Assembly: GCF_021390325.1 (NCBI RefSeq)
Contig: NZ_JAJUWU010000020.1
Span: forward strand, 1-64,000
Direction of reading: 5' to 3'
Length of the DNA: 64,000 bases
Origin: Jiella avicenniae
Lineage (GTDB): Bacteria > Pseudomonadota > Alphaproteobacteria > Rhizobiales > Rhizobiaceae
Shown: in pieces, positions 30,188 to 43,721 of the stretch
How positions within the stretch are numbered: the first letter of the stretch is position 1
Layout of the letters: each line of letters begins with the position of its first letter
The notes under the pieces: model-generated
The model's input: only the letters and a program-made list of their open reading frames with translations
Database searches by the model: none
What the model was told of the DNA's origin: nothing
Made by a program: the position numbers and the translations under genes

Positions 30188-31930
30188 TCAGGCGACGGTC
30201 CGCAGATGCGGCGTCGCACAGTCGCAGGCGTCTTCGTCTCGCGCGTCCCCGGCCCAGCACTTCAGCTTCGACGTCCTGCCGATGCCCGGATTGAAGGTGT
30301 TGGTGGGGTCGAGCCTGCGGTAGAAGTCCCGCAGGGCGGGCTTGGCGTCGTAGAGATGGCCGACATTGTGCTCGGCCGGGTACTCCGCCCCCCGCGCATC
30401 GAGGAGCTTCCACAGCGCGTGCTCGATCGCCAGACAGTCCTCGCCCTTGCGCACGAGATATTCCTGGTGGAGGACGTGGCAGAAGAAGTGGCCGCAATAC
30501 ATCTTGAAGGCGATCTTCTCCTCGATCTCCTGCGGCAGCTTTTCGAACCAGTCCAGCGTGTTGCGGGGCAAAGCGACGTCGAGGGCGACGATGTCCTCGA
30601 CCGTCTTGGGATGGACGGCCCGGTAGCGCACGATCGCGCCGCCGACGGCGAAGCGGTTGAGAAACGCCGCGCTGCCCTCTTCGGCGTCACATTCGAAGAA
30701 GTCGCCGGTGGCCGAGGGAAAGCGGCGTTCGAGATAGGCCCGCGCCTCTGCGGATCCGCCATTGCCCATCTTCAGCAGAAGGTGGTGGGCATAGCGATCC
30801 CGATAATCGTTCATCCGGCGGGGCAGATGTTCGGGGAACAGTCGTGACAGCCCCTGCAGGAAGCGGTCGGAGATCGCGCCACCGAGGCCGAGCTTTTCGG
30901 TGAGCCCGTCGATCCGGCTCTTGACGGCGAAAGCCTTCGGCACGTTGTCCGTGCCGAAATGCCTGATGAACAGGAACAGGTCCTTGCCGTAGCGCCGGCT
31001 CGCGTCATAGGCCGTGCGGTGCATGTACTCGCCGGCGATCGGCAGGTTTTCGAAGCCGGTCAGGATCTCGCGGCGGATGGTTTCCAGTTCCGCCGGCTCG
31101 TTGCTGCCGATGTAGAAGACGGTGACGTCCTCGTCGGCTGGGAACGTGTCGAGCCGCACGGCGAAGACCGCGACCTTGCCGGCCGAGCCCGACGCCTCGT
31201 AGTGACGGCGCGGATCGGCATTGAAGCGGGCGGGGGAGGCGGCGTCGACCTGCCGGACATGACGCTGATACTCCCGGTCCGAGGCCCAGCGGTCGGCCGG
31301 GAACGCGATCTGGCTCTCGTCGAAAGAACCCGCGTCGATCGCCGCGAGGATGGTTTCGGGGTCGTTCCCGGCCTCGATCCCCAGGTGATTGACCAGCTGC
31401 AGCGCGCCGGTCTCCGTAACCTGCGCGAAGAGCGCCATCTGCGTGAAGGCCGGGCCACGGCGGATCAAAGCGCCGCCGGAATTGTTGCAGATGCCGCCGG
31501 TCACCGAAGCGCCGATGCAGGACGAGCCGATCACCGAATGGGGCTCGCGGCCGAGCGGGCGCAGCTGCTTTTCGAGCTGGTTGAGCGTCGAGCCCGGCTG
31601 GCAGACCACCTGACGCCCCGAGTCGAGAAGATGGATGCGGTCCATCCGCAGCATGTTGACGATGACGATCGGACGATCGTAGCCGTCGCCATCCGGCGTC
31701 GAGCCGCCGGTGAGGCCGGTATTGGCGGCCTGGCAGATGATCGCGACGTCCGCCGCGACGCAGGCCTTCAGCGTGCGCCATTGCTCGACCAGGCTGCCCG
31801 GCCGGACGACCGCGAGGACGTCGCCGTCGCCGTAGCGATAGCCCTTGCGGAAGCGGCGGGTCGCATTTCGGCCGGTCAGCACGTGGCGCGTTCCGGCGAT
31901 GCCCTGAAGTTCTGCGACGAGATCGCTCAT
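30188..31930 (-). CDS. dld: Quinone-dependent D-lactate dehydrogenase
   Basis: A 580-residue FAD enzyme of the Dld family that oxidises D-lactate to pyruvate at the membrane. The FAD-binding half contains ICQAANTGLTGGSTPDG and GSSCIGASVTGGICNNSGG, both diagnostic. The C-terminal Lact-deh-memb region (FKMYCGHFFCHVLHQEYLV, DPTNTFNPGIG) is complete, and the length agrees with E. coli Dld. ATG 31930 is the only likely start; its leader contains a 16-base palindrome and the spacing of the SD-like GGGGAG is unusually long. It follows the SDR gene by 73 bases and probably shares its promoter. Confidence 0.93.
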   Translation of the reverse strand: MSDLVAELQGIAGTRHVLTGRNATRRFRKGYRYGDGDVLAVVRPGSLVEQWRTLKACVAADVAIICQAANTGLTGGSTPDGDGYDRPIVIVNMLRMDRIHLLDSGRQVVCQPGSTLNQLEKQLRPLGREPHSVIGSSCIGASVTGGICNNSGGALIRRGPAFTQMALFAQVTETGALQLVNHLGIEAGNDPETILAAIDAGSFDESQIAFPADRWASDREYQRHVRQVDAASPARFNADPRRHYEASGSAGKVAVFAVRLDTFPADEDVTVFYIGSNEPAELETIRREILTGFENLPIAGEYMHRTAYDASRRYGKDLFLFIRHFGTDNVPKAFAVKSRIDGLTEKLGLGGAISDRFLQGLSRLFPEHLPRRMNDYRDRYAHHLLLKMGNGGSAEARAYLERRFPSATGDFFECDAEEGSAAFLNRFAVGGAIVRYRAVHPKTVEDIVALDVALPRNTLDWFEKLPQEIEEKIAFKMYCGHFFCHVLHQEYLVRKGEDCLAIEHALWKLLDARGAEYPAEHNVGHLYDAKPALRDFYRRLDPTNTFNPGIGRTSKLKCWAGDARDEDACDCATPHLRTVA

Positions 31931-31937
31931 GCTGTGC

Positions 31938-31953
31938 GGGGAGACGTCTCCCC
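31938..31953. promoter_or_regulatory. Perfect palindrome before dld
   Basis: GGGGAGACGTCTCCCC is a perfect 16-base palindrome just 7 bases upstream of the dld ATG. In the mRNA it would bury the GGGGAG that could act as the ribosome site. It may serve in translation control or as a DNA site. Confidence 0.45.
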
Positions 31954-32003
31954 TCCCTGTTCGATTGGCTGATCCGGCCGCCCGGTCGGCGCGGCACGAA
32001 CCC

Positions 32004-32768
32004 TCAGAGACTCGTATAGCCGCCATCGACGGAAACGATCGACCCCGTCATCAGGCTGGAGGCGTCGGACGCGAGGAACTGGACGACGGCGGCGATCTCC
32101 TCCGGCTCGCCCAGCCGTCCCATCGGGGTCATCTTCAGCCATTGATCGACCAGTTCGGCCGATCCTTCGGCGACCCCGGCGATCAGCGGGGTATTGATAT
32201 AGGTGGGCGCCACGGCGTTGACGCGCACGCCGCGGGCCGCCCATTCCACCGCCAGGGATTTCGTCAGGTGGTGCACGGCGGCCTTGGTGGCGTTGTAGTG
32301 GCACTGCGGCTGCGGCCAGTTGACGATCTGGCCGGACATCGAACCGACATTGACGATCGATCCCTTGCCGCTTGCCAGCATTTTCCGGCCGAAGGCGCGG
32401 CAGGTGCGGAAGACGCCGGTCAGATTGACGTCGACGACCTTCTGCCAGTCGTCGTCTTCCATCTCGTCTGCGGGCGTATTGGTGACGACGCCGGCGTTGC
32501 AGACGAGGATGTCGAGGGCCGGAAGCTCGTCCGCGAGTGCCCGAAGCGCGGCCGTGTCGGTGACGTCGAGCCGATGGACGCCGGCGACCCGTCCCTCGGG
32601 CAGAGTCGCGGCGGCCGCTTCTGCGCGGGCGAGGTCGATGTCGGTGCAGTGGACGTCGGCGCCCGTCTGCGCCAGCGCCATGGCGATCGCCGCCCCGATC
32701 CCCTGTCCGGCGCCCGTCACCAGGGCCGTCTTGCCGGAAAGGTCGAGCTTGCGGCGATAGTCTGTCAT
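32004..32768 (-). CDS. Short-chain dehydrogenase/reductase (polyol dehydrogenase-like)
   Basis: A 254-residue classical SDR. The cofactor loop is TGAGQGIG at 18-25; an Asp after the second strand (TDID) points to NAD. The catalytic set is Ser143, Tyr158 and Lys162 (YNATK). In its locus it is the best candidate for oxidising a pentitol, or a similar polyol, to a ketose. The start is ATG 32768 with AAGGGC before it; an upstream in-frame extension is poor. An RpiR-type palindrome lies 119 bases upstream. Confidence 0.88.
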   Translation of the reverse strand: MTDYRRKLDLSGKTALVTGAGQGIGAAIAMALAQTGADVHCTDIDLARAEAAAATLPEGRVAGVHRLDVTDTAALRALADELPALDILVCNAGVVTNTPADEMEDDDWQKVVDVNLTGVFRTCRAFGRKMLASGKGSIVNVGSMSGQIVNWPQPQCHYNATKAAVHHLTKSLAVEWAARGVRVNAVAPTYINTPLIAGVAEGSAELVDQWLKMTPMGRLGEPEEIAAVVQFLASDASSLMTGSIVSVDGGYTSL

Positions 32769-32886
32769 GGCGGGCCCTTCGGCGGTGTTCTGCGGCCCGG
32801 CTTGGCGCTGCAAGGGGCTCGCGGTGCTCGGTGGCGACGGCAGATCCGAACGTCCGAGCGAATCGATCTCGAATGCCCATCAGGCG

Positions 32887-32903
32887 ATATAGCAAAACTA
32901 TAT
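32887..32903. promoter_or_regulatory. RpiR-type operator candidate, site 1
   Basis: ATATAG-CAAAA-CTATAT: perfect 6-base arms around an A-rich 5-base centre, upstream of the SDR-dld unit. It is the most symmetric of four matching sites. Confidence 0.65.
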
Positions 32904-33126
32904 TATCCACCCTCGCACCGTCAACGTGCTTGAGGCGTCTGTGGGCGGTCCCCGACATTCGCAGCTTCGACAGATATCTACACAGAGCGCTGCAAGAAAT
33001 TGAGAATATGAGGGAAAAGCAAATTCCACGCGACCCCGTCGAGGCCGGCGTCATGCGGCTCTGCGGATACCGTCGCCGATCCTTCGCAGACGTCATCCGC
33101 AATTTTCGGTCTTCCGTTCAGAAAAA

Positions 33127-33143
33127 ATCTAGTTTAGCTATGC
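33127..33143. promoter_or_regulatory. RpiR-type operator candidate, site 2
   Basis: ATCTAG-TTTAG-CTATGC, with the inner TAG/CTA arms conserved and the same 5-base spacing, 66 bases before the aldehyde dehydrogenase start. Confidence 0.6.
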
Positions 33144-33208
33144 CGCGATGATGTCGCAGGGCGCAAGGGCGCTACGGCCGTGAGCGGCCGTGATGGAAGG
33201 GCAGTCGG

Positions 33209-34663
33209 ATGTTCGAGAGCGAAATGTTGATCGGCGGCGAGTGGATCTCGGGCGAAGGCGCGGTCCTCGAGGTGCAGAACCCGGCGACCGAAGAGACGAT
33301 CGGCACGATCACCAACGCCACCCCGGAAGAAATCGACCGTGCCATCCACGCCGCGCGCAAGGCATTTCCCGCATGGGCCGGGCTTTCGCCGTTCAGGCGG
33401 GCGGAACTGCTGCACAAGGCCGGAGACCTGATCGACCGGCGCAAGGACGACATCGCCCGTGCGATGACGAGCGAGCAGGGCAAGCCGTTGAACGAGGCGA
33501 GGGGCGAGGTGTCCAAGCTCGCCCAGACCCTGCACTTCTACGCGGAAGAAGGGGTCCGGGTTCACGGCGCGATCATCCCGAACGAGAGCAATGCCTATCA
33601 GAGCCTCGTCGTCCGCGAGCCGATCGGCGTCGTCGCGGCGATTTCGCCCTGGAACTACCCGGCCGAGCTGATCGGCTGGAAGATCGGCGGGGCGCTCGCC
33701 GCCGGCTGCACGATCGTCGTCAAGCCGCCGGAGTTGACGCCGTTCTCGCCGCTGGCGATCGCCCGCGCTTTGCACGATGCCGGGATCCCCGCCGGGGTCG
33801 TCAACATGGTCACCGGCAAGGGCTCGAGCGTCGGCCAGCACCTCGTCGAAAGCCCGCTGATCGACAAGGTCGCCTTCACCGGCTCGGGCGCGGTCGGTCT
33901 TCGAATCCAGCAATCCAGCCCGACGGTGAAGAAGCTCTCCTTGGAGCTCGGCGGCAACTGTCCGATGATCGTCACCGCGACCGCCGATCTCGACGCGGCG
34001 GTGAAGGGTGCGGCCCGGCGCGCCTTCCGCAACATGGGCCAGATCTGCATCGCCATCAATCGCATCTACGTCGCCGAGAGCGTCTACGAGGCCTTCCTGT
34101 CGAAGCTCGCGGCGGCGGCGGATGCGCTCACCATCGACAACGGCCTCGACGATCCGGCTGCCGATCTCGGCGCGATGGCCTCGGCCGAGCCTCTCGGAAA
34201 GACGAAGACCCATCTGGCCGACGCCCTGGAAAAGGGCGCGCGGCTGATGGCCGGCGGCCGTCCGCCGGAGGGCGAGAAATTCAAGAAGGGCTTCTTCTTC
34301 CGCCCGACCGTCCTCGCGGACTGCACCCACGAAATGCAGGTGATGACGGAGGAGACCTTCGGGCCGCTGGTCGGCGTCGCGCCCTTCCGCAGCCTCTCCG
34401 AGGCGGTCGAAAAGGCCAACGACACGCCCTACGGCCTCGCCGCCTACGCCTACACCAAGCATATGGACGAGATGCGCTACCTGTCGTCCCGGCTCGACTA
34501 CGGCAACGTTGCGATCAACAACGTCGACGCCGGCATCATCAACGCCCCCTATGGCGGCCGCAAGCAGAGCGGCGTCGGCTACGAGCACGGCCGCGAGGGC
34601 ATGCTGGAATATTTCAACTTCAAGCATGTGCGCATCTGCTTCGACGAGCCGGAGGACGCCTGA
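33209..34663 (+). CDS. Aldehyde dehydrogenase family protein
   Basis: A 484-residue NAD(P)-dependent aldehyde dehydrogenase. The catalytic Cys is in NMGQICIAINR and the general-base Glu in LELGGNCP; SPWNYP and FTGSGAVG are the cofactor-site motifs. Related enzymes oxidise lactaldehyde, glycolaldehyde, succinate semialdehyde or 2-oxoglutarate semialdehyde. The last would join it to the XylX-like dehydratase at the far end of the same locus. Start ATG 33209 has GGAAGG before it. Its stop overlaps the kinase ATG by one base. Confidence 0.92.
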   Translation: MFESEMLIGGEWISGEGAVLEVQNPATEETIGTITNATPEEIDRAIHAARKAFPAWAGLSPFRRAELLHKAGDLIDRRKDDIARAMTSEQGKPLNEARGEVSKLAQTLHFYAEEGVRVHGAIIPNESNAYQSLVVREPIGVVAAISPWNYPAELIGWKIGGALAAGCTIVVKPPELTPFSPLAIARALHDAGIPAGVVNMVTGKGSSVGQHLVESPLIDKVAFTGSGAVGLRIQQSSPTVKKLSLELGGNCPMIVTATADLDAAVKGAARRAFRNMGQICIAINRIYVAESVYEAFLSKLAAAADALTIDNGLDDPAADLGAMASAEPLGKTKTHLADALEKGARLMAGGRPPEGEKFKKGFFFRPTVLADCTHEMQVMTEETFGPLVGVAPFRSLSEAVEKANDTPYGLAAYAYTKHMDEMRYLSSRLDYGNVAINNVDAGIINAPYGGRKQSGVGYEHGREGMLEYFNFKHVRICFDEPEDA

Positions 34664-36213
34664 TGGCGATCGACACGGCGATCCTCGGCATCGACATCGG
34701 CACGTCCGGCTGCAAGGCGCTGCTGCTCGACGCCGCCGGAACGGTCCTTGCGACCCATACCGCGACATACGACGCGAGCGCCCCGCGGCCGGGCTGGTCG
34801 GAGCAGGATCCGGAAGACTGGATCACCGGCGCGCGAGCCGCCATTTCCGGCGTCCTGGCCAAGCGCCCGGGGACCGGGATCGTCGCGATCGGCCTGTCGG
34901 GCCAGATGCACGGGCTGACGCCGCTCGACGAGGCGCATCGGGTCCTGCGTCCGGCGATCCTGTGGAACGACCAGCGCAACGCCGCCGAATGCGCCGAGAT
35001 GACCGAGGCCGTCGGTGGCCTTTCGGCGCTGCTCGCCGAAACCAACAACCGGATGCTGCCGGGCTACACCGGCGGCAAGATCGTGTGGATGCGCAAGCAC
35101 GAGCCGGAGGCGTATCGCCGGCTGCGCCATGTGCTCAATCCCAAGGACTATCTGCGGCTGCGGCTCACCGGCGAACTGGCGACCGAGGTCTCCGACGCAT
35201 CCGGCACCGGGCTGTTCGACGTCCGCCGGCGGGCCTGGTCGACGAAGGTGGTGGAGGCGGCCGGGATCGATCCGGCCGTGCTGCCGGCCTGTCACGAATC
35301 CCAGGAGGTCTCCGGCCGCGTGTCGGCTTCCGCCGCCGATTTCTTCGGCCTGCCCCAAGGGCTTCCGGTGGTGGGCGGCGGCGGCGATTCCGTCATCCAG
35401 ACCATCGGCGCCGGCGTCATCGATCCCGGCGACCTGCAGACGACCGTTGGGACGGCCGGCATCCTCGCCTGCGCGCTCGCCGCGCCGCGCGACAATCCGG
35501 ATGGCCGGCTGCAGGTTTTCTGCAACGTCGCGCCGGACCGGTGGCATTGCATGGGCGTCTCGCTGAACGCCGGCGGAGCTCTCGCCTGGCTGCGACGGCT
35601 GGCGCAGGGCTTCGGCGATCTCACCGAGAACGGCTGGCACGACATTCCCTTCGACCGCCTGATGGAGCGGGCCGCGGCCAGCACGGCCGGGTCCCGCGGG
35701 CTGATCTTTCTGCCCTATCTGAACGGCGAGCGCTGCCCCTATGCCGATCCCGATGCGCGCGGCGCCTTTCTCGGTCTGACCTCGCGGCACGGCGAGAGCG
35801 ACATGATCCGCAGCGTCCTCGAAGGCGTCGTCTTCGCGCTCCGCGACATCTACGCCCTGATGGCGGAGACCGGCATCGCCGCCGACCGTATCCGCGCCTC
35901 CGGCGGCGGCGCGGCCTCGACCTTCTGGCGGCAGATCCAGGCCGACGTCTTCGGCTGCGACGTCGTCACCACCGAAGGCGCGGCGGAGGGGGGCGCCTTC
36001 GGCGCGGCCATCGTCGCGGGCGTCGGCGTCGGGCTTTGGCCGGATGCGAGCACGGCGGCCGGCCTTTGCCGGACCGTATCGCGGCAGTCTCCGTCGAAAG
36101 ATCGGGGCGTCTACGCCGAGATGTTCGACATCTACCGGAGCCTCTATCCGGCCCTGCAGGCGACGTTCGGAAGGCTGGCCGATCCGGTCTTCGATCGCGA
36201 GGAGCAAGCATGA
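34663..36213 (+). CDS. FGGY carbohydrate kinase (xylulokinase-like)
   Basis: A 516-residue sugar kinase close to XylB. The N-terminal phosphate motif is LGIDIGTSGCKALLLD; SGQMHGLTPLD and ILWNDQR line the sugar site, as in xylulokinases; GGGGDSV holds the catalytic Asp region. It would phosphorylate a ketopentose such as D-xylulose or D-ribulose. Coupled to the aldehyde dehydrogenase before it and the phosphatase after it by overlapping stop and start codons. Confidence 0.9.
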   Translation: MAIDTAILGIDIGTSGCKALLLDAAGTVLATHTATYDASAPRPGWSEQDPEDWITGARAAISGVLAKRPGTGIVAIGLSGQMHGLTPLDEAHRVLRPAILWNDQRNAAECAEMTEAVGGLSALLAETNNRMLPGYTGGKIVWMRKHEPEAYRRLRHVLNPKDYLRLRLTGELATEVSDASGTGLFDVRRRAWSTKVVEAAGIDPAVLPACHESQEVSGRVSASAADFFGLPQGLPVVGGGGDSVIQTIGAGVIDPGDLQTTVGTAGILACALAAPRDNPDGRLQVFCNVAPDRWHCMGVSLNAGGALAWLRRLAQGFGDLTENGWHDIPFDRLMERAAASTAGSRGLIFLPYLNGERCPYADPDARGAFLGLTSRHGESDMIRSVLEGVVFALRDIYALMAETGIAADRIRASGGGAASTFWRQIQADVFGCDVVTTEGAAEGGAFGAAIVAGVGVGLWPDASTAAGLCRTVSRQSPSKDRGVYAEMFDIYRSLYPALQATFGRLADPVFDREEQA

Positions 36214-36899
36214 CGGCCAATGGCCAGATCAAAGCGGTCGTCTTCGACCTCGACGGAACGCTGATCGACAGCGCGCCGGACATCGCGGCGGCCGTCAACC
36301 GCGTCCTCGCCGAGCATGGCTGGGCGCCGCTTGCGACCGCCTACGTCGAGCGGTTCATCGGCGACGGCCCGAAGACGCTGCTTCTCCGGATCCTGCAGGA
36401 GCAGGGCCTGCCGACCGACGACGCCTTCGTGGAGGCCTCCAAGGTCGCCTATCTGAAGAACTACGCCGAGGCGCCGGCGACGCACACGACCTTCTTCGCC
36501 CATGTCGCCGAGGACCTGAAGGCGCTGAAGGCTTCCGGCCTCAGGCTCGGCATCTGCACCAACAAGCCGCACGGCCTGACCCAGACGGTCCTGTCCATCC
36601 TCGGGATCGCCGACCTCTTCGACAGCGCCATCGGCGCCGACGCGGTGCCGCGGCGCAAGCCCGACGCGGCGCATCTTCTCGCCGTCGTCGAGGCCATGGG
36701 TCTCGGCAAGGACGAGATCGCCTATGTCGGCGATACCGACGTCGACAGCGCCTGCGCACGGGGCGCCGGCGTGCCCTTCTTCATCGTCCCGTGGGGTGGT
36801 GGTCCGCACGTCGTCGACGCCGACGCGACCCGGATTTCGCGGCTGCGCGATCTCTTGTTCCACCTCGGCCGGACGAGCCCCGAAGGCGTGCCGGCATGA
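36210..36899 (+). CDS. HAD phosphatase (phosphoglycolate phosphatase-like)
   Basis: A 229-residue HAD-superfamily phosphatase of the Gph type. Motif I is VVFDLDGTLIDS, motif II lies in GICTNKPHG, the motif III lysine in RRKPDAA, and motif IV is YVGDTDVDSACA. It may remove phosphate from 2-phosphoglycolate or from a sugar phosphate that accumulates in this pathway. The ATG overlaps the kinase stop by four bases and its own stop overlaps the RpiR start in the same way. Confidence 0.87.
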   Translation: MTANGQIKAVVFDLDGTLIDSAPDIAAAVNRVLAEHGWAPLATAYVERFIGDGPKTLLLRILQEQGLPTDDAFVEASKVAYLKNYAEAPATHTTFFAHVAEDLKALKASGLRLGICTNKPHGLTQTVLSILGIADLFDSAIGADAVPRRKPDAAHLLAVVEAMGLGKDEIAYVGDTDVDSACARGAGVPFFIVPWGGGPHVVDADATRISRLRDLLFHLGRTSPEGVPA

Positions 36900-37735
36900 T
36901 CCAGAGCCTTCTCCATCAGATCCGGGAGGAAATGCCGAAGATGGCGGCGGCGGAACGCCGGGTGGCGGAAGCGGTCAACGCGAAGCCCAACGACGTCATC
37001 CACATGAGCATGGCGGTCCTCGCCAAGGACTGCCGCGTCAGCGATCCGACGATCATCCGCTTCTGCCGGCGCTTCGGCTTCGAGGGCTACCAGGACTTCA
37101 AGGTCAATCTCGCCCAGAACATCGTGCCCCGGGCGCCGTTCCACTACGACAAGATCACCGCCGACGACACGGTCGAGAACATCGTCCGCAAGACCTGCGA
37201 GAATTCGCTCAGCGCCATCCAGCGGGCGCTGGAGGACCTCGTCCCGGCGCAGATCGAGGCCGGGGCGAAGGCCATCCACGCCGCCTCCTGGCTGGCGATT
37301 TACGCGACCGGCATCTCCGAGGTGACGGCGATCGATGCCGAGCACAAGTTCCAGCGTCTCGGCTTTCGCTGCTCGGCCATTCTCGGCGAGAAGCGCCAGC
37401 GCACCCAGGCGGGCTTCGCGCGGCCCGGCGAACTGGCCATGATCTTCTCCCAGTCCGGCGCGACGCGGCAGATGGTCGAACTCGCCAAGGCGACGCGGGA
37501 GCAGGGCGCGACCGTGCTGTCGATCACCGCCGGCGACACGCCGCTGACGGTGGTGAGCGATCACGTGATCGCCGTGACGCCCTACGACCACACCGAACTC
37601 CTGACGCCTCTGGCCTCGCGGCTGAACCATCATCTGGTGGTCAACATGCTGGTCACGGCCATCGCCGTGATGACCGGCAACGAATTCCCCGACCAGCTGC
37701 CGGCGCTCGATTCCTGGCTGACGGAAAAGCTTTGA
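36896..37735 (+). CDS. RpiR/MurR-family transcriptional regulator
   Basis: A 279-residue regulator. The N-terminal HTH_6 domain (MSMAVLAKDCRVSDPTIIRFCRRFGFEGYQDFK) is typical, and the C-terminal half is a SIS sugar-phosphate-binding domain (LAIYATGISEVTAIDAEHKFQRLG; AMIFSQSGATRQMVELAK). It probably senses a sugar phosphate made by the neighbouring kinase. Four copies of a TAG-N5-CTA-type palindrome in the gaps of this locus are its likely targets. It is unusual in being translationally coupled to the enzymes it may control. Confidence 0.93.
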   Translation: MIQSLLHQIREEMPKMAAAERRVAEAVNAKPNDVIHMSMAVLAKDCRVSDPTIIRFCRRFGFEGYQDFKVNLAQNIVPRAPFHYDKITADDTVENIVRKTCENSLSAIQRALEDLVPAQIEAGAKAIHAASWLAIYATGISEVTAIDAEHKFQRLGFRCSAILGEKRQRTQAGFARPGELAMIFSQSGATRQMVELAKATREQGATVLSITAGDTPLTVVSDHVIAVTPYDHTELLTPLASRLNHHLVVNMLVTAIAVMTGNEFPDQLPALDSWLTEKL

Positions 37736-37772
37736 CGCGGCCTCAGAGCCGCGCCCGATCGAAGGATTTCAC

Positions 37773-38483
37773 ATGACGCAAGACGACGCCAAGCGCTTGG
37801 CCGGCATCAAGGTGATCGACACCTATGTGCGCGACGGAATGAAGCTCGGCCTCGGATCGGGCACGACCTCGCACATCTTCGTGCGGGAGCTCGGCGCCCG
37901 GGTCGCGGGCGGCCTGAAGCTCACCTGCACCACCACGTCGAACAGCACCAGCGCGGTGGCGCGCGAGGTGGGCATCGAGCTGACCGACGTCAACGACATC
38001 GACATGCTGGACCTGACGGTCGACGGTCCCGACGAGATCGATCGCCGGTTCCGGATGATCAAGGGCGGCGGCGCCTGCCTGTTGTGGGAGAAGATCGTCG
38101 CGCATGCCTCCCGCCGCATGGTCACGATCTGCGACGAAACCAAGATCGTCGACACGCTGGGCCGCTTTCCGCTGCCGGTCGAGGTCGTCCAATACGCCTG
38201 GAAGCAGACCGAACGCGCCATCCGCCGCACCTTGCCCGGCTACGGCGTCGCCGGGACCGAACTCGTTCGGCGCATGAAGGACGGTGCGCCGGTCGTCACC
38301 GACAGCGGCAATTTCATCATCGACTGTCACTGCGGTTCGATCGGCGATGCCGAGGGGCTGGAGGTGGCACTCAACATGATCCCGGGAGTGGTGGAGAACG
38401 GCCTCTTCACCCGGGAGTCCAGCGCCATGGTCGTCGGCTGCTTCGACGGAACCGCCTATGTGAGCGAGCGGCCGGTGGCCTGA
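37773..38483 (+). CDS. rpiA: Ribose-5-phosphate isomerase A
   Basis: A 236-residue RpiA. The phosphate loop is GLGSGTTSHIF and the catalytic region DLTVDGPDEIDRRFRMIKGGGACLLWEKIVA keeps the key Asp, Lys and Glu residues; NGLF near the C-terminus is also conserved. It interconverts ribose 5-phosphate and ribulose 5-phosphate. VDGPDEI in place of the usual VDGADEI and GSGTTS in place of GTGSTA suggest a locus-specific paralogue rather than the housekeeping copy. RBS GAAGGA precedes ATG 37773. Confidence 0.92.
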   Translation: MTQDDAKRLAGIKVIDTYVRDGMKLGLGSGTTSHIFVRELGARVAGGLKLTCTTTSNSTSAVAREVGIELTDVNDIDMLDLTVDGPDEIDRRFRMIKGGGACLLWEKIVAHASRRMVTICDETKIVDTLGRFPLPVEVVQYAWKQTERAIRRTLPGYGVAGTELVRRMKDGAPVVTDSGNFIIDCHCGSIGDAEGLEVALNMIPGVVENGLFTRESSAMVVGCFDGTAYVSERPVA

Positions 38484-38493
38484 ACGGGAGTAA

Positions 38494-38510
38494 ATCTAGT
38501 TTTACGAGAT
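38494..38510. promoter_or_regulatory. RpiR-type operator candidate, site 3
   Basis: ATCTAG-TTTTA-CGAGAT, one mismatch in the arms, lies eleven bases after the rpiA stop in the gap before the sugar-binding protein gene. Confidence 0.6.
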
Positions 38511-38653
38511 GCGACGCGACTGCGCGAACGAGTTCGCTCGCCCATGCTGTCCTCGGTATACTGACGACGATGGTCGAACTACTGAAATGACTGAACAAAA
38601 TCGATGAAATGTCGCTCTTTGCCGACGAGGCGGCTTGACGGCGCGCAGGTCGC

Positions 38654-38683
38654 ATGATGTAAAACGGCATAGTAAAACTACAT
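38654..38683. promoter_or_regulatory. RpiR-type operator candidate, site 4 with tandem half-match
   Basis: GCATAG-TAAAA-CTACAT (38667-38683) keeps the TAG/CTA arms and A-rich centre. Directly before it, ATGATG-TAAAA-CGGCAT (38654-38670) has the same centre with weaker arms, offset by 13 bases. The pair lies 27 bases before the binding-protein ATG. Confidence 0.6.
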
Positions 38684-38709: not shown

Positions 38710-39795
38710 ATGCTCAAGAAATTCGACGTCTCGCGCCGCTCCGTCCTGAAGGGCGGGCTCGCCCTCGGCGCCGCCAGTCTCGGCATGCCGGGCTTTGCGA
38801 AGGCTGCCGACCGCGTCTTCGTGCCGTTCAGCAACAAGAGCCTCGACTACTATTTCTTCGTCATCCAGGAAGAGGCGGTGCGGCGCGCCGTCGAGGGGCG
38901 CGAGTGGGAGTTCCAGGCCACCAACGCCAACTTCGACAACACCCGCCAGCTCGAGCAGTGGCAGAGCCTCCTCTTGAGCCAGCCCTCGGCCATCGTCTGC
39001 GACCCGATCGACAGCCAGGCGATCGCCTCGTCGATCGCCCGCTACAACCAGCGCAAGGTGCCGGTCGCCATCATCGACACGCCCGCCGACGGCGGCGACG
39101 TGGCGATCACCGTCTCCTTCGACAACTACCAGGGCGGCGTCATGGCCGCGCAGGAGATCGTCAAGCGGCTGGAGCAGAAGTACGGCAGCAAGAAGGGCAC
39201 GGTGCTCAACTGTTTCGGCGCCCTGCAGAGCGTCGCCTGGCGCCTTCGCAAGGAGGGCTTCGAGGCCGAAATGGGCAAATATCCCGACATCAAGCTACTC
39301 AGCCGTCCGACCGAGGGTCAGCTCGACCTCATGCTGTCGGTGACGTTGTCGACTCTTTCGGAATATCCGGATCTCGACGCCGTCCACGCCCCGAGCGACA
39401 GCCCGGCCCGCGGGATCGCCACCGCGTTGCAGCAGCGCGACCGCTGGAAGAAGGTGGGCGAGGAAGGCCACGTCGTCTTCATCAACATCGACGGCGAGCC
39501 GATCGCGCTGCAACTGATCAAGGAAGGCTACATGGACGCCTGCGTCTCGCAGGATCCGATCGCCTACGGCCAGATTGCCGTCGACATGCTCGAAAAGCAC
39601 GCGATGAAGGGCGAGGCGGTCCCGCTCGGCGCCTACGAGAACGACAAGTACTTCTGGGAAAAGGGCGAGATCGTCGATTCCAAGACCGGGCCGGCACTCG
39701 TCATCCCGCCCTTCGTCATCGATGCCTCGAACGCCGAGGACGAGCGCCACTGGGGCAACATCGCGGAACAGGAGTGGGGCATCGCCTACAAATAG
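38710..39795 (+). CDS. Sugar ABC transporter substrate-binding protein (ribose-type)
   Basis: A 361-residue type-I periplasmic binding protein. The N-terminus has a twin-arginine signal (SRRSVLKGGLALGAAS, cleavage near FAKAAD). The central fold is of the Peripla_BP_4 type: QWQSLLLSQPSAIVCDPIDS and KVPVAIIDTPADGG. Its start at ATG 38710 follows GGAGGACAAA. Two RpiR-type sites lie upstream and a strong hairpin downstream. The cargo is probably the pentose or pentitol handled by the preceding enzymes. Confidence 0.92.
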   Translation: MLKKFDVSRRSVLKGGLALGAASLGMPGFAKAADRVFVPFSNKSLDYYFFVIQEEAVRRAVEGREWEFQATNANFDNTRQLEQWQSLLLSQPSAIVCDPIDSQAIASSIARYNQRKVPVAIIDTPADGGDVAITVSFDNYQGGVMAAQEIVKRLEQKYGSKKGTVLNCFGALQSVAWRLRKEGFEAEMGKYPDIKLLSRPTEGQLDLMLSVTLSTLSEYPDLDAVHAPSDSPARGIATALQQRDRWKKVGEEGHVVFINIDGEPIALQLIKEGYMDACVSQDPIAYGQIAVDMLEKHAMKGEAVPLGAYENDKYFWEKGEIVDSKTGPALVIPPFVIDASNAEDERHWGNIAEQEWGIAYK

Positions 39796-39867: not shown

Positions 39868-41385
39868 GTGGAGCACATGACAGTCGGCAATGCCGGGACG
39901 GCCGACGCCGATATCCTGCGCATTGCCAATCTCACCAAGACATACGGGCGGTTCTCGGCCCTCAAATCCGTCAGCCTCGCGGTCCGCCGCGGCTCGATCC
40001 ACGGCCTGCTCGGCGAGAACGGCGCCGGCAAGAGTACGCTCGTCGGCATGATTTCCGGCCAGCGGCAGCCGACCGGCGGCACCATCCGGTTGAACGGCGT
40101 CGAGGTGCAGGGCCACGACGTCAAGGAGATGGAGAAAGCCGGCGTCTTCCTGGTGACCCAGGAGCCGATGATCATCGATCACATGAGCGTCGCCGAGAAT
40201 CTCCTGCTCGGAATCTGGCCGCGCAAGGGCTGGATGATCGACTGGAAGCGGCTTCGCCGGGACGCGGCGCGGATGCTCGAGGACACGGGCATCGATCCGT
40301 CCCAACGGGCCGGCACGCTCGACGCGGTGGCGCGCCGCAAGCTGAACATCCTCAGGGCGATGTTCAGCGGCGGCAAGGTCGTCATCCTCGACGAGCCGAC
40401 CGCCTCGCTCGACGTCGAGGCCCGCCAGCAGCTCTTCGCCTTCATGCGCCGCCTCAAGGCCGAAGGCGTCACCTTCGTCTTCATCTCGCACTACAACGAC
40501 GAGATCCTCGAAATCTGCGACGCCGTCAGCGTCCTGCGCGACGGCGAGCTTGCCGGCGGTTCGGACGACGTCGGCGAGATGACCTCGGACATGCTGTCCG
40601 AACTCGTGCTCGGCCGTGGCCTGTCATTGTTTCAGCGCAAGCGACGGGAGTTCGACCCCGACGAGCCGGCGATCGTCGTCGAAGGCGTTCGCGCCCGCAA
40701 CGTCGCCGTCGATGCCTTCCGCATCCACCCCGGCGAGATCGTCGGCTTTGCCGGCCTGCCCGGCGCCGGCGCCAAGGAGTTCGCCCGCTGCCTCTTCGGG
40801 CTCGTCCATGCCAAGGCCGGAACGATGCAACTGGAGCCCGGCTCGCAGACGAGCGGCCTTCCCGGCCATCCCTTCGAGGCCTACCGGCGCGGCATCGCGT
40901 TCCTTTCCGACGACCGGCGCAAGGACGGTCTGGTGGGGCATCTGTCGATCGGCGCGAACATGTCCCTGTCGTCGCTGCCGGCGCTGTCGCGCCGCGGTTT
41001 CGTCGACGAGGAGGCGGAGCGGTCGATGATTTCGCGCTATTTTGCCAGCATGGGCGTCAAGGCGCCGAACCCGGACGTCGCCATCGATACGCTCAGCGGC
41101 GGCAACCAGCAGAAGGTCTGCCTCGGGCGCGTCCTCGCGACGGAACCGAAACTTCTGATCCTCGACGAGCCGACGCGTGGCATCGACGTCGGCGTCAAGC
41201 AGGACGTCCACCGGATCATCGACGATCTGAGCCGCGAGGGCGTCGCCGTGATCGTCGTCACGACGGATTCCGACGAGATGATCCGCCTGGTCGACCGGGT
41301 CTGCGTGTTTTCGGAAGGCCGCATCGTCGGGGAGCTGACGGGGGAGGCGATCAGCAAGGACCGTCTCCGGCAGATCAGCGGCTGA
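39868..41385 (+). CDS. Sugar ABC transporter ATPase, two-domain (RbsA-type)
   Basis: A 505-residue protein with two fused ATPase domains. The first has Walker A GENGAGKST, and an unusual signature region (DAVARRKLNILRAM) before VVILDEPTASLD. The second has the degenerate P-loop GLPGAGAKE usual for this family, LSGGNQQKV and LILDEPTRGIDVG. The start is GTG 39868, preceded by GGGAGAG; ATG 39877 has too little space for the ribosome site. Confidence 0.92.
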   Translation: MEHMTVGNAGTADADILRIANLTKTYGRFSALKSVSLAVRRGSIHGLLGENGAGKSTLVGMISGQRQPTGGTIRLNGVEVQGHDVKEMEKAGVFLVTQEPMIIDHMSVAENLLLGIWPRKGWMIDWKRLRRDAARMLEDTGIDPSQRAGTLDAVARRKLNILRAMFSGGKVVILDEPTASLDVEARQQLFAFMRRLKAEGVTFVFISHYNDEILEICDAVSVLRDGELAGGSDDVGEMTSDMLSELVLGRGLSLFQRKRREFDPDEPAIVVEGVRARNVAVDAFRIHPGEIVGFAGLPGAGAKEFARCLFGLVHAKAGTMQLEPGSQTSGLPGHPFEAYRRGIAFLSDDRRKDGLVGHLSIGANMSLSSLPALSRRGFVDEEAERSMISRYFASMGVKAPNPDVAIDTLSGGNQQKVCLGRVLATEPKLLILDEPTRGIDVGVKQDVHRIIDDLSREGVAVIVVTTDSDEMIRLVDRVCVFSEGRIVGELTGEAISKDRLRQISG

Positions 41386-41446
41386 GGCCGCGTCGAATAC
41401 GGCTCGAGGCTCTCGACGCCCCGCCGACACCATCAGGAGTTCGATC

Positions 41447-42445
41447 ATGAGCAACGTTTCGATCAAGGCGGAAGCGGCGCCCGGACCGCGCAGCGGCACC
41501 TCCAACCGGGCCATCGTCGGCTGGGTCCTGCACAACGTCGTGTGGATCTGGCTGGCGATCCTGGTCGTGTTCTTCGGCCTGTTCAACTCGTTCTTCTTCA
41601 CCGTCTTCAATTTCCAGAACATCATGGTCCAGGCGACCGTGCTCGGCATGCTGGCCACTGCGGTCGCCCTGCCGCTGCTCGTCGCCGAGATCGACCTGTC
41701 GATCCCGGCCAATCTCGGCTTCTCCTCGGCCGTCGGGGCGCTCGCCGTCACCGATTACGGCGCGCCCTGGTGGCTGGGTGCGCTGCTTGGCGTCGTCGTC
41801 GCGACGGCGATCGGCTTTTTCAACGGGCTGTGCATCACCCGCCTGCGCATGGTCTCGCTGATCCAGACCCTGTCGATGATGATCATCCTGCAGGGCGCGC
41901 TCCTGGCGCTCACCCAGGGCAAGACGATCACCAGCCTGCCGGACGGCTATACCTGGATCGGCCAGGCGACGATCGACGGCTGGCCGGTCATGCCGCTGGT
42001 CTTCGTCGTCGCCCTGATCTTCATGGCCGTTCTCCTGCGGCGCACCGTCCTCGGCCGCAGCATCTATGCGGTCGGCGGCAATGCCGCGGCGGCCAATTCC
42101 GCCGGCATCCGCGTCGACCGCACCAAGATCGTCGCCTTCACGATCGCCGGCTTCCTGGCCGGGATCGGCGGCTATCTGCTCGCCTCCTGGCAGATGGCGA
42201 TCACCTCCAACCAGGGCAGCAGCTTCCTGCTCTACGCGATCGCGGCGCCCATCATCGGCGGCGTCAGCGTCTTCGGCGGACGCGGCAACGTCGTCGGCGT
42301 GTTCGGCGGCGTCATGCTGCTGACCGTCATCCAGGTGGGCCTCGCGATCATCGCCGTCCCGTCCTTCTATGTCGGCATGATCGGTGGCGTGATGATCTTC
42401 ATCGCCGTGGCCATCGACGCCATCCGGGTGCGCTATTTCCAGTAA
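41447..42445 (+). CDS. Sugar ABC transporter permease (RbsC-type)
   Basis: A 332-residue permease with 8-10 helices. GRSIYAVGGNAAAANSAGIRVDRTK is the conserved cytoplasmic loop of the family, and IGGVSVFGGRGNVVGVFGG is the second marker. It completes the importer with the preceding ATPase and binding protein. GGAG lies seven bases before ATG 41447. Confidence 0.93.
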   Translation: MSNVSIKAEAAPGPRSGTSNRAIVGWVLHNVVWIWLAILVVFFGLFNSFFFTVFNFQNIMVQATVLGMLATAVALPLLVAEIDLSIPANLGFSSAVGALAVTDYGAPWWLGALLGVVVATAIGFFNGLCITRLRMVSLIQTLSMMIILQGALLALTQGKTITSLPDGYTWIGQATIDGWPVMPLVFVVALIFMAVLLRRTVLGRSIYAVGGNAAAANSAGIRVDRTKIVAFTIAGFLAGIGGYLLASWQMAITSNQGSSFLLYAIAAPIIGGVSVFGGRGNVVGVFGGVMLLTVIQVGLAIIAVPSFYVGMIGGVMIFIAVAIDAIRVRYFQ

Positions 42446-42560
42446 CGGATAGGGCTGCGACGCATCCGTCGGGGAGCCGAACGAGCGGATTCGGCCTTGC
42501 CCCCGCGGCGCGACTGCGCTCTCTGTGGGTCCACTCACGACACTGCATACGGGAAACGCC

Positions 42561-43721
42561 ATGTCTGTCATCGACGAGCCCTCGGGACTATATCTCGGTC
42601 GCGCCTTTTCACCCGGGGCGAACGGCCCGGCCGTCGTCACCTTGCGCGACGGGCGGCTCGTCGACATCACCTCGTCCACGGCGCCGACCGTCAGCGACAT
42701 CTGTGAAATGGACGACCCGGCATCCTACGTCCGCTCGGCCGCCGGGAAGGATCTCGGGGCTCTCGCGGACGTCGCCGGCGAGACGGATCGCTCCGGCGAG
42801 AAGCCCTATCTGCTGGCGCCCTGCGATCTCCAGGCGGTCAAGGCCTGCGGCGTGACCTTCGCCAGTTCGATGATCGAGCGGGTGATCGAGGAAAAGGCCA
42901 GCGGCGATCCTTCTCGCGCCGAGGCGATCCGCGGCCGTATCGGCGCTGCCATCGGCGAGAGCCTGCGCGACATCCGCGCCGGATCGCCGGAGGCCGAGCG
43001 CGCCAAGGCGGCGCTGATCGAAGAGGGGTTGTGGAGCCAGTATCTCGAGGTCGGGATCGGCCCGGATGCCGAGGTCTTCTCGAAGTGCCAGCCGATGGCG
43101 GCGGTCGGAACGGGGAGCAATGTCGGGCTGCATCCGCGCTCCAACTGGAACAATCCGGAGCCGGAGATCGTCCTCGCGGTTTCTTCGGCGGGGCGCATCC
43201 TCGGCGCCACCCTCGGCAACGACGTCAATCTCCGCGACTTCGAGGGCCGCTCGGCCCTTCTCCTGTCGAAGGCCAAGGACAACAACGCCTCGACCGCGAT
43301 CGGCCCGATGATCCGGCTGTTCGACGACGGCTTCTCGCTCGACGACGTGCGCCGGGCCGAACTCACCCTGACCATCGACGGGCCCGAGGGCTTCCGCCTC
43401 GAAGGGCATTCCTCGATGAGCCAGATCAGCCGCGACCCGGAGGATCTCGTCGCCCAGACCGTCGGGCGCCATCACCAGTATCCGGACGGCCTCATGCTGT
43501 TTCTCGGCACGCTCTTTGCGCCGACCCAGGATCGCGACCAGCCGGGCGAGGGGTTCACTCACAAGGTCGGCGACGTCGTGCGGATCGCCGCCCCCGGTCT
43601 CGGCTGCCTCGAAAACACCGTCGCGCTGTCGACCGAATGTCCGCCCTGGACCTTCGGCACCCGCGCCCTGATGCGCAATCTCGCCGCGCGAGACCTGATC
43701 GGAGGGCCGTCGGGCGATTGA
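42561..43721 (+). CDS. FAH-family dehydratase, XylX-like
   Basis: A 386-residue protein of the fumarylacetoacetate hydrolase superfamily. The core reads NPEPEIVLAVSSAGRILGA, then GNDVNLRDFEGRSALLLSKAKDNNAS, with Glu and Asp metal ligands. This pattern and length agree with the 2-keto-3-deoxy-pentonate dehydratases (XylX of Caulobacter), which make 2-oxoglutarate semialdehyde. If so, the locus holds parts of both a phosphorylative and an oxidative pentose route. The start at ATG 42561 follows GGGAAACGCC. It is 115 bases after the permease and probably in the same transcript. Confidence 0.8.
   Translation: MSVIDEPSGLYLGRAFSPGANGPAVVTLRDGRLVDITSSTAPTVSDICEMDDPASYVRSAAGKDLGALADVAGETDRSGEKPYLLAPCDLQAVKACGVTFASSMIERVIEEKASGDPSRAEAIRGRIGAAIGESLRDIRAGSPEAERAKAALIEEGLWSQYLEVGIGPDAEVFSKCQPMAAVGTGSNVGLHPRSNWNNPEPEIVLAVSSAGRILGATLGNDVNLRDFEGRSALLLSKAKDNNASTAIGPMIRLFDDGFSLDDVRRAELTLTIDGPEGFRLEGHSSMSQISRDPEDLVAQTVGRHHQYPDGLMLFLGTLFAPTQDRDQPGEGFTHKVGDVVRIAAPGLGCLENTVALSTECPPWTFGTRALMRNLAARDLIGGPSGD

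Follow-up and report, generated by a model that had tools for sequence, protein, structure and literature searches.

The pentose locus of Jiella avicenniae carries four related 17 bp sequences in its two main non-coding gaps, and these are very likely landing sites for a single regulator, because dozens of related gene clusters have similar sites at matching positions. The locus sits in a 64,000-nucleotide stretch of DNA (the window), and among its genes is one coding for an RpiR-family protein (36896–37735). We consider it highly probable that this protein is a local repressor that acts on O1, O2 and O3, with O4 as a weaker, probably assisting site, and that it is probably released by a pentose phosphate. 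The genes, the sites and one promoter-like element are listed in Table 1.

Table 1. Genes, putative operator sites and promoter-like element of the pentose locus (positions in the window; scores of sites are from a matrix of relatives' sites)
Feature	Position	Strand	Basis or remarks
Dld-type D-lactate dehydrogenase	30188..32026	-	NCBIfam NF008387, 904 bits against a cut-off of 391
SDR dehydrogenase	32004..32768	-	Pfam adh_short_C2; start at 32768 chosen by us
O1, ATATAGCAAAACTATAT	32887..32903		over the -10 of the leftward promoter towards SDR-dld; score 27.9, best of the window
Promoter-like element TTGACG-16-TATAGT	32897..32924	-	towards the SDR gene; second hexamer within O1
O2, ATCTAGTTTAGCTATGC	33127..33143		upstream of the aldehyde dehydrogenase operon; score 18.99 (19.0)
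Aldehyde dehydrogenase (aldh)	33209..34663	+	Pfam Aldedh; gene 1 of the enzyme operon
XylB-type pentulose kinase	34663..36213	+	TIGR01312, 510 bits against a cut-off of 380
HAD phosphatase, phosphoglycolate-phosphatase-like	36210..36899	+	TIGR01449, 189 bits against a cut-off of 180
RpiR-family regulator, HexR/RccR-like	36896..37735	+	Pfam HTH_6 and SIS
Ribose-5-phosphate isomerase A (rpiA)	37773..38483	+	NF001924, above cut-off
O4, ATCTAGTTTTACGAGAT	38494..38510		adjoins the end of rpiA; one good half; score 19.5
O3, GCATAGTAAAACTACAT	38667..38683		upstream of the substrate-binding-protein gene; score 23.4
Sugar ABC importer substrate-binding protein	38710..39795	+	ribose-binding-protein-like, below the models' cut-offs
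Likely importer ATPase and permease genes	39868-42445		downstream of the substrate-binding-protein gene; named from reading frames alone
Fumarylacetoacetate-hydrolase-family protein	42525-43721		after the importer

The genome encodes two copies of RpiA, the second on contig C45, which suits a pathway-specific copy at the pentose locus. The position of the Dld-type dehydrogenase gene varies: here it is beside the SDR gene, and elsewhere it follows the permease gene (loci L033, L034, L037, L040, L044-L046, L049, L051, L053, L056, L076, L079 and L082). Since it recurs in the locus at differing positions, this enzyme is probably part of the pathway. In many relatives the fumarylacetoacetate-hydrolase-family gene is found instead between O1 and the SDR gene; its product, which we take to resemble XylX, may serve the same pathway as a sugar-acid dehydratase or hydrolase.

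The four 17-mers were first noticed in the initial annotation, and their letters at 32887, 33127, 38494 and 38667 are exactly as given there. O1, O2 and O3 are perfect matches to TAG-N5-CTA, but O4 has CGA in its right arm and is one-sided, though conserved. The plan of 6-base arms around a 5-base centre is better replaced by one in which half-sites of the form ATSTAGT flank a centre of 3 bases. A matrix derived from relatives alone (119 distinct sites, the close relative Jiella pacifica being left out) ranks the four sites first to fourth in the 64 kb, and the best score elsewhere is 7.2, at position 38485, overlapping O4. The same matrix gives only -4.4 to the weaker match at 38654 that had been put forward as a fifth site, and we reject it.

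The window contains three TAG-N5-CTA sequences where 0.53 would be expected; as 4 of 100 shuffles of the entire window reached that number, the count by itself is only a little out of the ordinary for 64 kb. The unusual feature is their position, all three falling inside two short gaps, as the earlier claim of confinement to non-coding DNA had it. When the gaps themselves (440 and 226 bases) were shuffled 2000 times with their dinucleotides preserved, the mean count was 0.044 and the maximum 1. The gaps have G+C contents of 60% and 51%, and the window 67.5%. Genome-wide, TAG-N5-CTA is present in 14 places in 5,172,125 bases, three of them at the pentose locus, and sequences with at most one mismatch from TAGTAAAACTA are present in four, again with three at this locus, so that these motif searches, a form of the genome-wide scan proposed in the initial annotation, find the matches concentrated here. 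By the relatives' matrix, the 11 TAG-N5-CTA places outside the locus include one of 18.3 (C11:32638) and one of 13.6 (C45:158184), the rest scoring below 8. The first of these, ACATAGTTTTTCTATGA (G000:C11:32638-32648, L105), is an off-locus site some 140 bases upstream of an open reading frame, and counts against our reading.

Searching genome contigs with an alignment of five rows recovered 69 loci, 67 of which encode a regulator 62–97% identical to that of the window. With L012 added, and with L083 and L084 (28% identity) left out and genome G139 treated apart, 68 loci were read, sites being counted as TAG-N5-CTA matches and gene starts being placed by tblastn. As the 67 loci were retrieved via the regulator, its occurrence there follows from the method, and the loci, being related, cannot be counted as independent. 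Upstream of aldh (up to 500 bases) there are two TAG-N5-CTA sequences in 58 of 64 readable loci and one in the other 6 (L021, L024, L055 and L079 being unreadable there). The gap between rpiA and the substrate-binding-protein gene has at least one in 57 of 65 readable loci (L021, L024 and L076 being unreadable at the importer start). The comparison of these gaps that the initial annotation had called for thus finds the same sites in related genomes. Elsewhere in the loci there are only 10 matches in 1,145,276 bases, and since by our reading three of these are target sites in L076 and L079, the true background is about 7. The eight readable loci without an importer-side TAG-N5-CTA are seven from Pseudomonas and one from Erwinia; five of the eight have weaker matches near the expected position. 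Instead of a single importer-side match, there are three in an Acinetobacter guillouiae locus (L075 10604-10955) and two in that of a Phyllobacteriaceae MAG (L062 10636-10741).

The orthologous loci have diverged in their flanks but keep the sites in place, the mean information per column being 0.13–0.28 bits outside the sites and 1.2–1.4 bits inside them. In G139, whose regulator is 47% identical, there is a site scoring 28.7 about 60 bases before aldh and one scoring 22.8 at 60–75 bases before the substrate-binding-protein gene. At an E value of 1e-60, the regulator and the substrate-binding protein are found in the same 6 of 151 related genomes, including that of the window; in a class-wide draw of 385 genomes at 1e-55, the only regulator match is the window's own.

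The locations of the sites relative to promoter-like elements suggest what they may do. The element overlapping O1 has 10 of 12 matches (0.3 expected) and is the sole promoter-like match in 32700–33260, and the scan gave none at O2 or O3 in the window. In relatives, where flank conservation was measured among representatives with stretches less than 70% identical, little is conserved outside the sites besides promoter-like bases. These include a T at -15 from the centre of O2 (40 of 47), a T at -25 from O3 (32 of 49), and GTCAAG 25–30 bases to the right of the O1 centre (CTTGAC when read leftwards), with A at +28 in 38 of 51. In 40 of the 57 loci that have an O3, a TTGAC sequence starts 24–27 bases upstream of its centre. 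The upstream flank of O4 is conserved as well, since rpiA ends there. In the window, TTGACG starts 40 bases before the O3 centre, 14 bases farther out than is usual in relatives, which would place O3 nearer to the transcription start than in those genomes. The location of O1–O3 on or between promoter-like hexamers in relatives suits repression. The proposal that one regulator controls the SDR-dld, enzyme and importer units fits these elements, with O1 over a leftward promoter-like element on the SDR side and O2 and O3 at what in relatives are the enzyme and importer promoters, where the regulator would be predicted to bind.

The one-sided site O4 is of a different character. A second importer-side site scoring at least 9 is present in 49 of 65 gaps, compared with 5 of 1260 random 220-base windows of the aldh–rpiA stretch. 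Among the 49, the site counted in L072 is where a decayed O3 lies, and that in L032 scores a borderline 9.2; 44 of the 49 start between 2 bases before and 13 bases after the point where the rpiA match ends. In 35 distinct O4 sequences the left TAG is kept in 34 and the right CTA in 3, and therefore not only O4 but also its one-sidedness is conserved. The remaining 16 of the 65 gaps, in which O4 is weak or not present, are seven from Pseudomonas, seven others (four titled Mesorhizobium), L039 and L063. The spacing between O4 and O3 is 144–229 in 29 of 31 distinct values, the remaining two being 95 and 341. Helical phasing of the operator pairs, which would have spoken for looping, was not found, random jitter matching the observed phasing in a fraction 0.36 of trials for O1–O2 and 0.81 for O4–O3; as the spacings are broad, this lack of phasing is compatible with looping. 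We considered O4 as half of a 28-bp site of the RccR type and rejected the idea, there being no conserved second half downstream in the relatives' consensus. Tentatively, O4 could be a selected weak auxiliary site, whose good half is gripped by an RpiR tetramer on O3, 145–230 bp downstream, to form a repression loop, or which acts as a roadblock at the end of rpiA, although we regard this reading as somewhat doubtful. If it is correct, the loop or roadblock would set the strength and sharpness of importer control.

The regulator has the domain layout of the RpiR family, with HTH_6 (79.7 bits) and SIS (46.2 bits) both above the Pfam cut-offs. Its best NCBIfam model is that of HexR (NF008451), a KDPG-responsive RpiR regulator, at 191.3 bits, below the cut-off of 296. 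AlsR and other local sugar-phosphate RpiR repressors provide precedents for local control of a sugar catabolic cluster, and this kind of system is well known, but with the AlsR model, whose cut-off is 400, the window regulator reaches only 112 bits. No publication recognisable as describing the pentose-locus regulon was found in the accessible, mostly open literature. The nearest solved structures are 8ju9 and 8k3b, which we infer to be entries for RccR of Pseudomonas, the structure of which with KDPG is reported in PMC10810197. The window regulator shares the helix-turn-helix and SIS layout of RccR and is 34% identical to a Pseudomonas gingeri protein taken for it, with a similar recognition helix, SDPTIIRFCR compared to SEPTIVRFCR in that protein; the P. 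gingeri protein taken for HexR has SEPTVNRFCR.

In PMC5489143, RccR binds the 15-bp operators TGTAGTAAAACTACA and TGTAGTTTTACTACT and controls central carbon genes, and the HexR operator is given as TTGT-N7/8-ACAA, which is unlike the sites of the pentose locus. The sites of the window and its relatives resemble in plan the published RccR operator TGTAGT-N3-ACTACA, but an exact copy of either 15-mer is present neither among 122 distinct relatives' sites nor among the four of the window. Mismatches to the nearer RccR 15-mer number one in 3 of the relatives' sites, two in 29, three in 47 and four to six in 43, and 2–5 in those of the window. The predicted targets here are those of a local pentose cluster, in contrast to the central carbon genes of the KDPG-binding RccR. 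The seven Pseudomonas loci L066, L067, L069-L071, L073 and L074 have three distinct operators, in which the TGTAGT half is present in 0 of 6 halves, compared with 46 of 240 elsewhere, where it is the commonest half; the L066 and L074 genomes each encode two further RpiR relatives. The missing half could reflect avoided cross-talk with RccR, though the sites are few and it may be chance.

The ligand pocket suggests that the effector differs from that of RccR. According to PMC10810197, nine RccR residues contact KDPG, K270 being essential and S139, S183, S185 and S188 holding the phosphate. Across the 67 regulators aligned (L076 and L079 were skipped as short), S139, H148, R152, S183 and S185 are identical in all and S188 is replaced by threonine, which leaves S, S, S and T at the phosphate-holding positions throughout. 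The position of K270, however, is occupied by aspartate in every one of the 67, and the KDPG-contact set of RccR is thus incomplete; the H164 position has K, Q, N, T or R, and R277 aligns to K278, a placement that is uncertain. Because of the aspartate, KDPG is unlikely as the effector. This would instead be a phosphorylated sugar that lacks a carboxylate at C1. The simplest, and probable, candidate is a pentose phosphate, produced either by the XylB-type kinase or by the RpiA of the pathway.

The scheme that we propose, in which binding, repression, the limits of the operons, the effector and the role of O4 are all predictions, would run as follows. The N-terminal helix-turn-helix of the regulator would bind 17-bp inverted repeats of about ATSTAGT-N3-ACTAYAT, of which O1 is at the putative promoter of the SDR-dld unit, O2 at that of the enzyme unit (regulator included) and O3 at that of the importer unit, and the bound protein would block RNA polymerase at all three. 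O4, a weaker, one-sided operator by the end of rpiA, would probably assist O3. When substrate enters, the adjacent kinase and isomerase would make a pentose phosphate, which would bind to the SIS domain and release the regulator, and the three units would be turned on together.

Could the sites instead serve a different regulator encoded elsewhere, such as an RccR or HexR orthologue, with the local RpiR protein having other sites? We think this very unlikely. In its favor, the site plan resembles that of the RccR operator, and P. gingeri genome G151 has both the locus and the protein taken for RccR, the latter immediately preceded by a TGTAGTATAACTACA site. In the genome of the window, however, the P. 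gingeri protein as query matches the local regulator best (2.1e-43) and the next protein at only 3.7e-7, and the HexR model at 1e-20 finds the local regulator only. Moreover, the RccR/HexR-type 15-mer pattern is present in just two (L095 and L101) of ten paralogue loci of about 3–4 kb and absent from eight (rows L089, L090, L094 and L101 for these loci were disregarded, having been taken on the wrong strand).

It also seems unlikely, by a slightly smaller measure, that the local protein binds these sites but activates, or has a dual role, at one or more of the promoters, like RccR with its two types of site. For RccR, opposite responses to KDPG at 15-bp and 28-bp sites are described in PMC5489143, and the RpiR protein NanR is reported to be an activator. 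Against this stand the promoter-like hexamers around O1–O3 in relatives and the missing partner half downstream of O4. That the palindromes are simply chance A/T-rich palindromes of intergenic DNA we regard as extremely improbable: the gaps are indeed richer in A/T than the window and whole-window shuffles occasionally reach three matches, but no shuffle of the gaps themselves produced more than one, and the sites are conserved in diverged orthologous loci. We therefore favor local repression by the RpiR protein.

For a pentose cluster that occurs in records titled Jiella, Mesorhizobium, Paracoccus, Kaistia, Herbaspirillum, Pseudomonas, Acinetobacter and Erwinia, among others, these observations provide a testable set of operators together with a regulator and a predicted kind of effector. 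They also point to a naturally occurring group of RccR-like proteins in which the charge at one position of the ligand pocket has changed while the plan of the operator has remained similar, a group that can help to explain ligand choice in the RpiR family.
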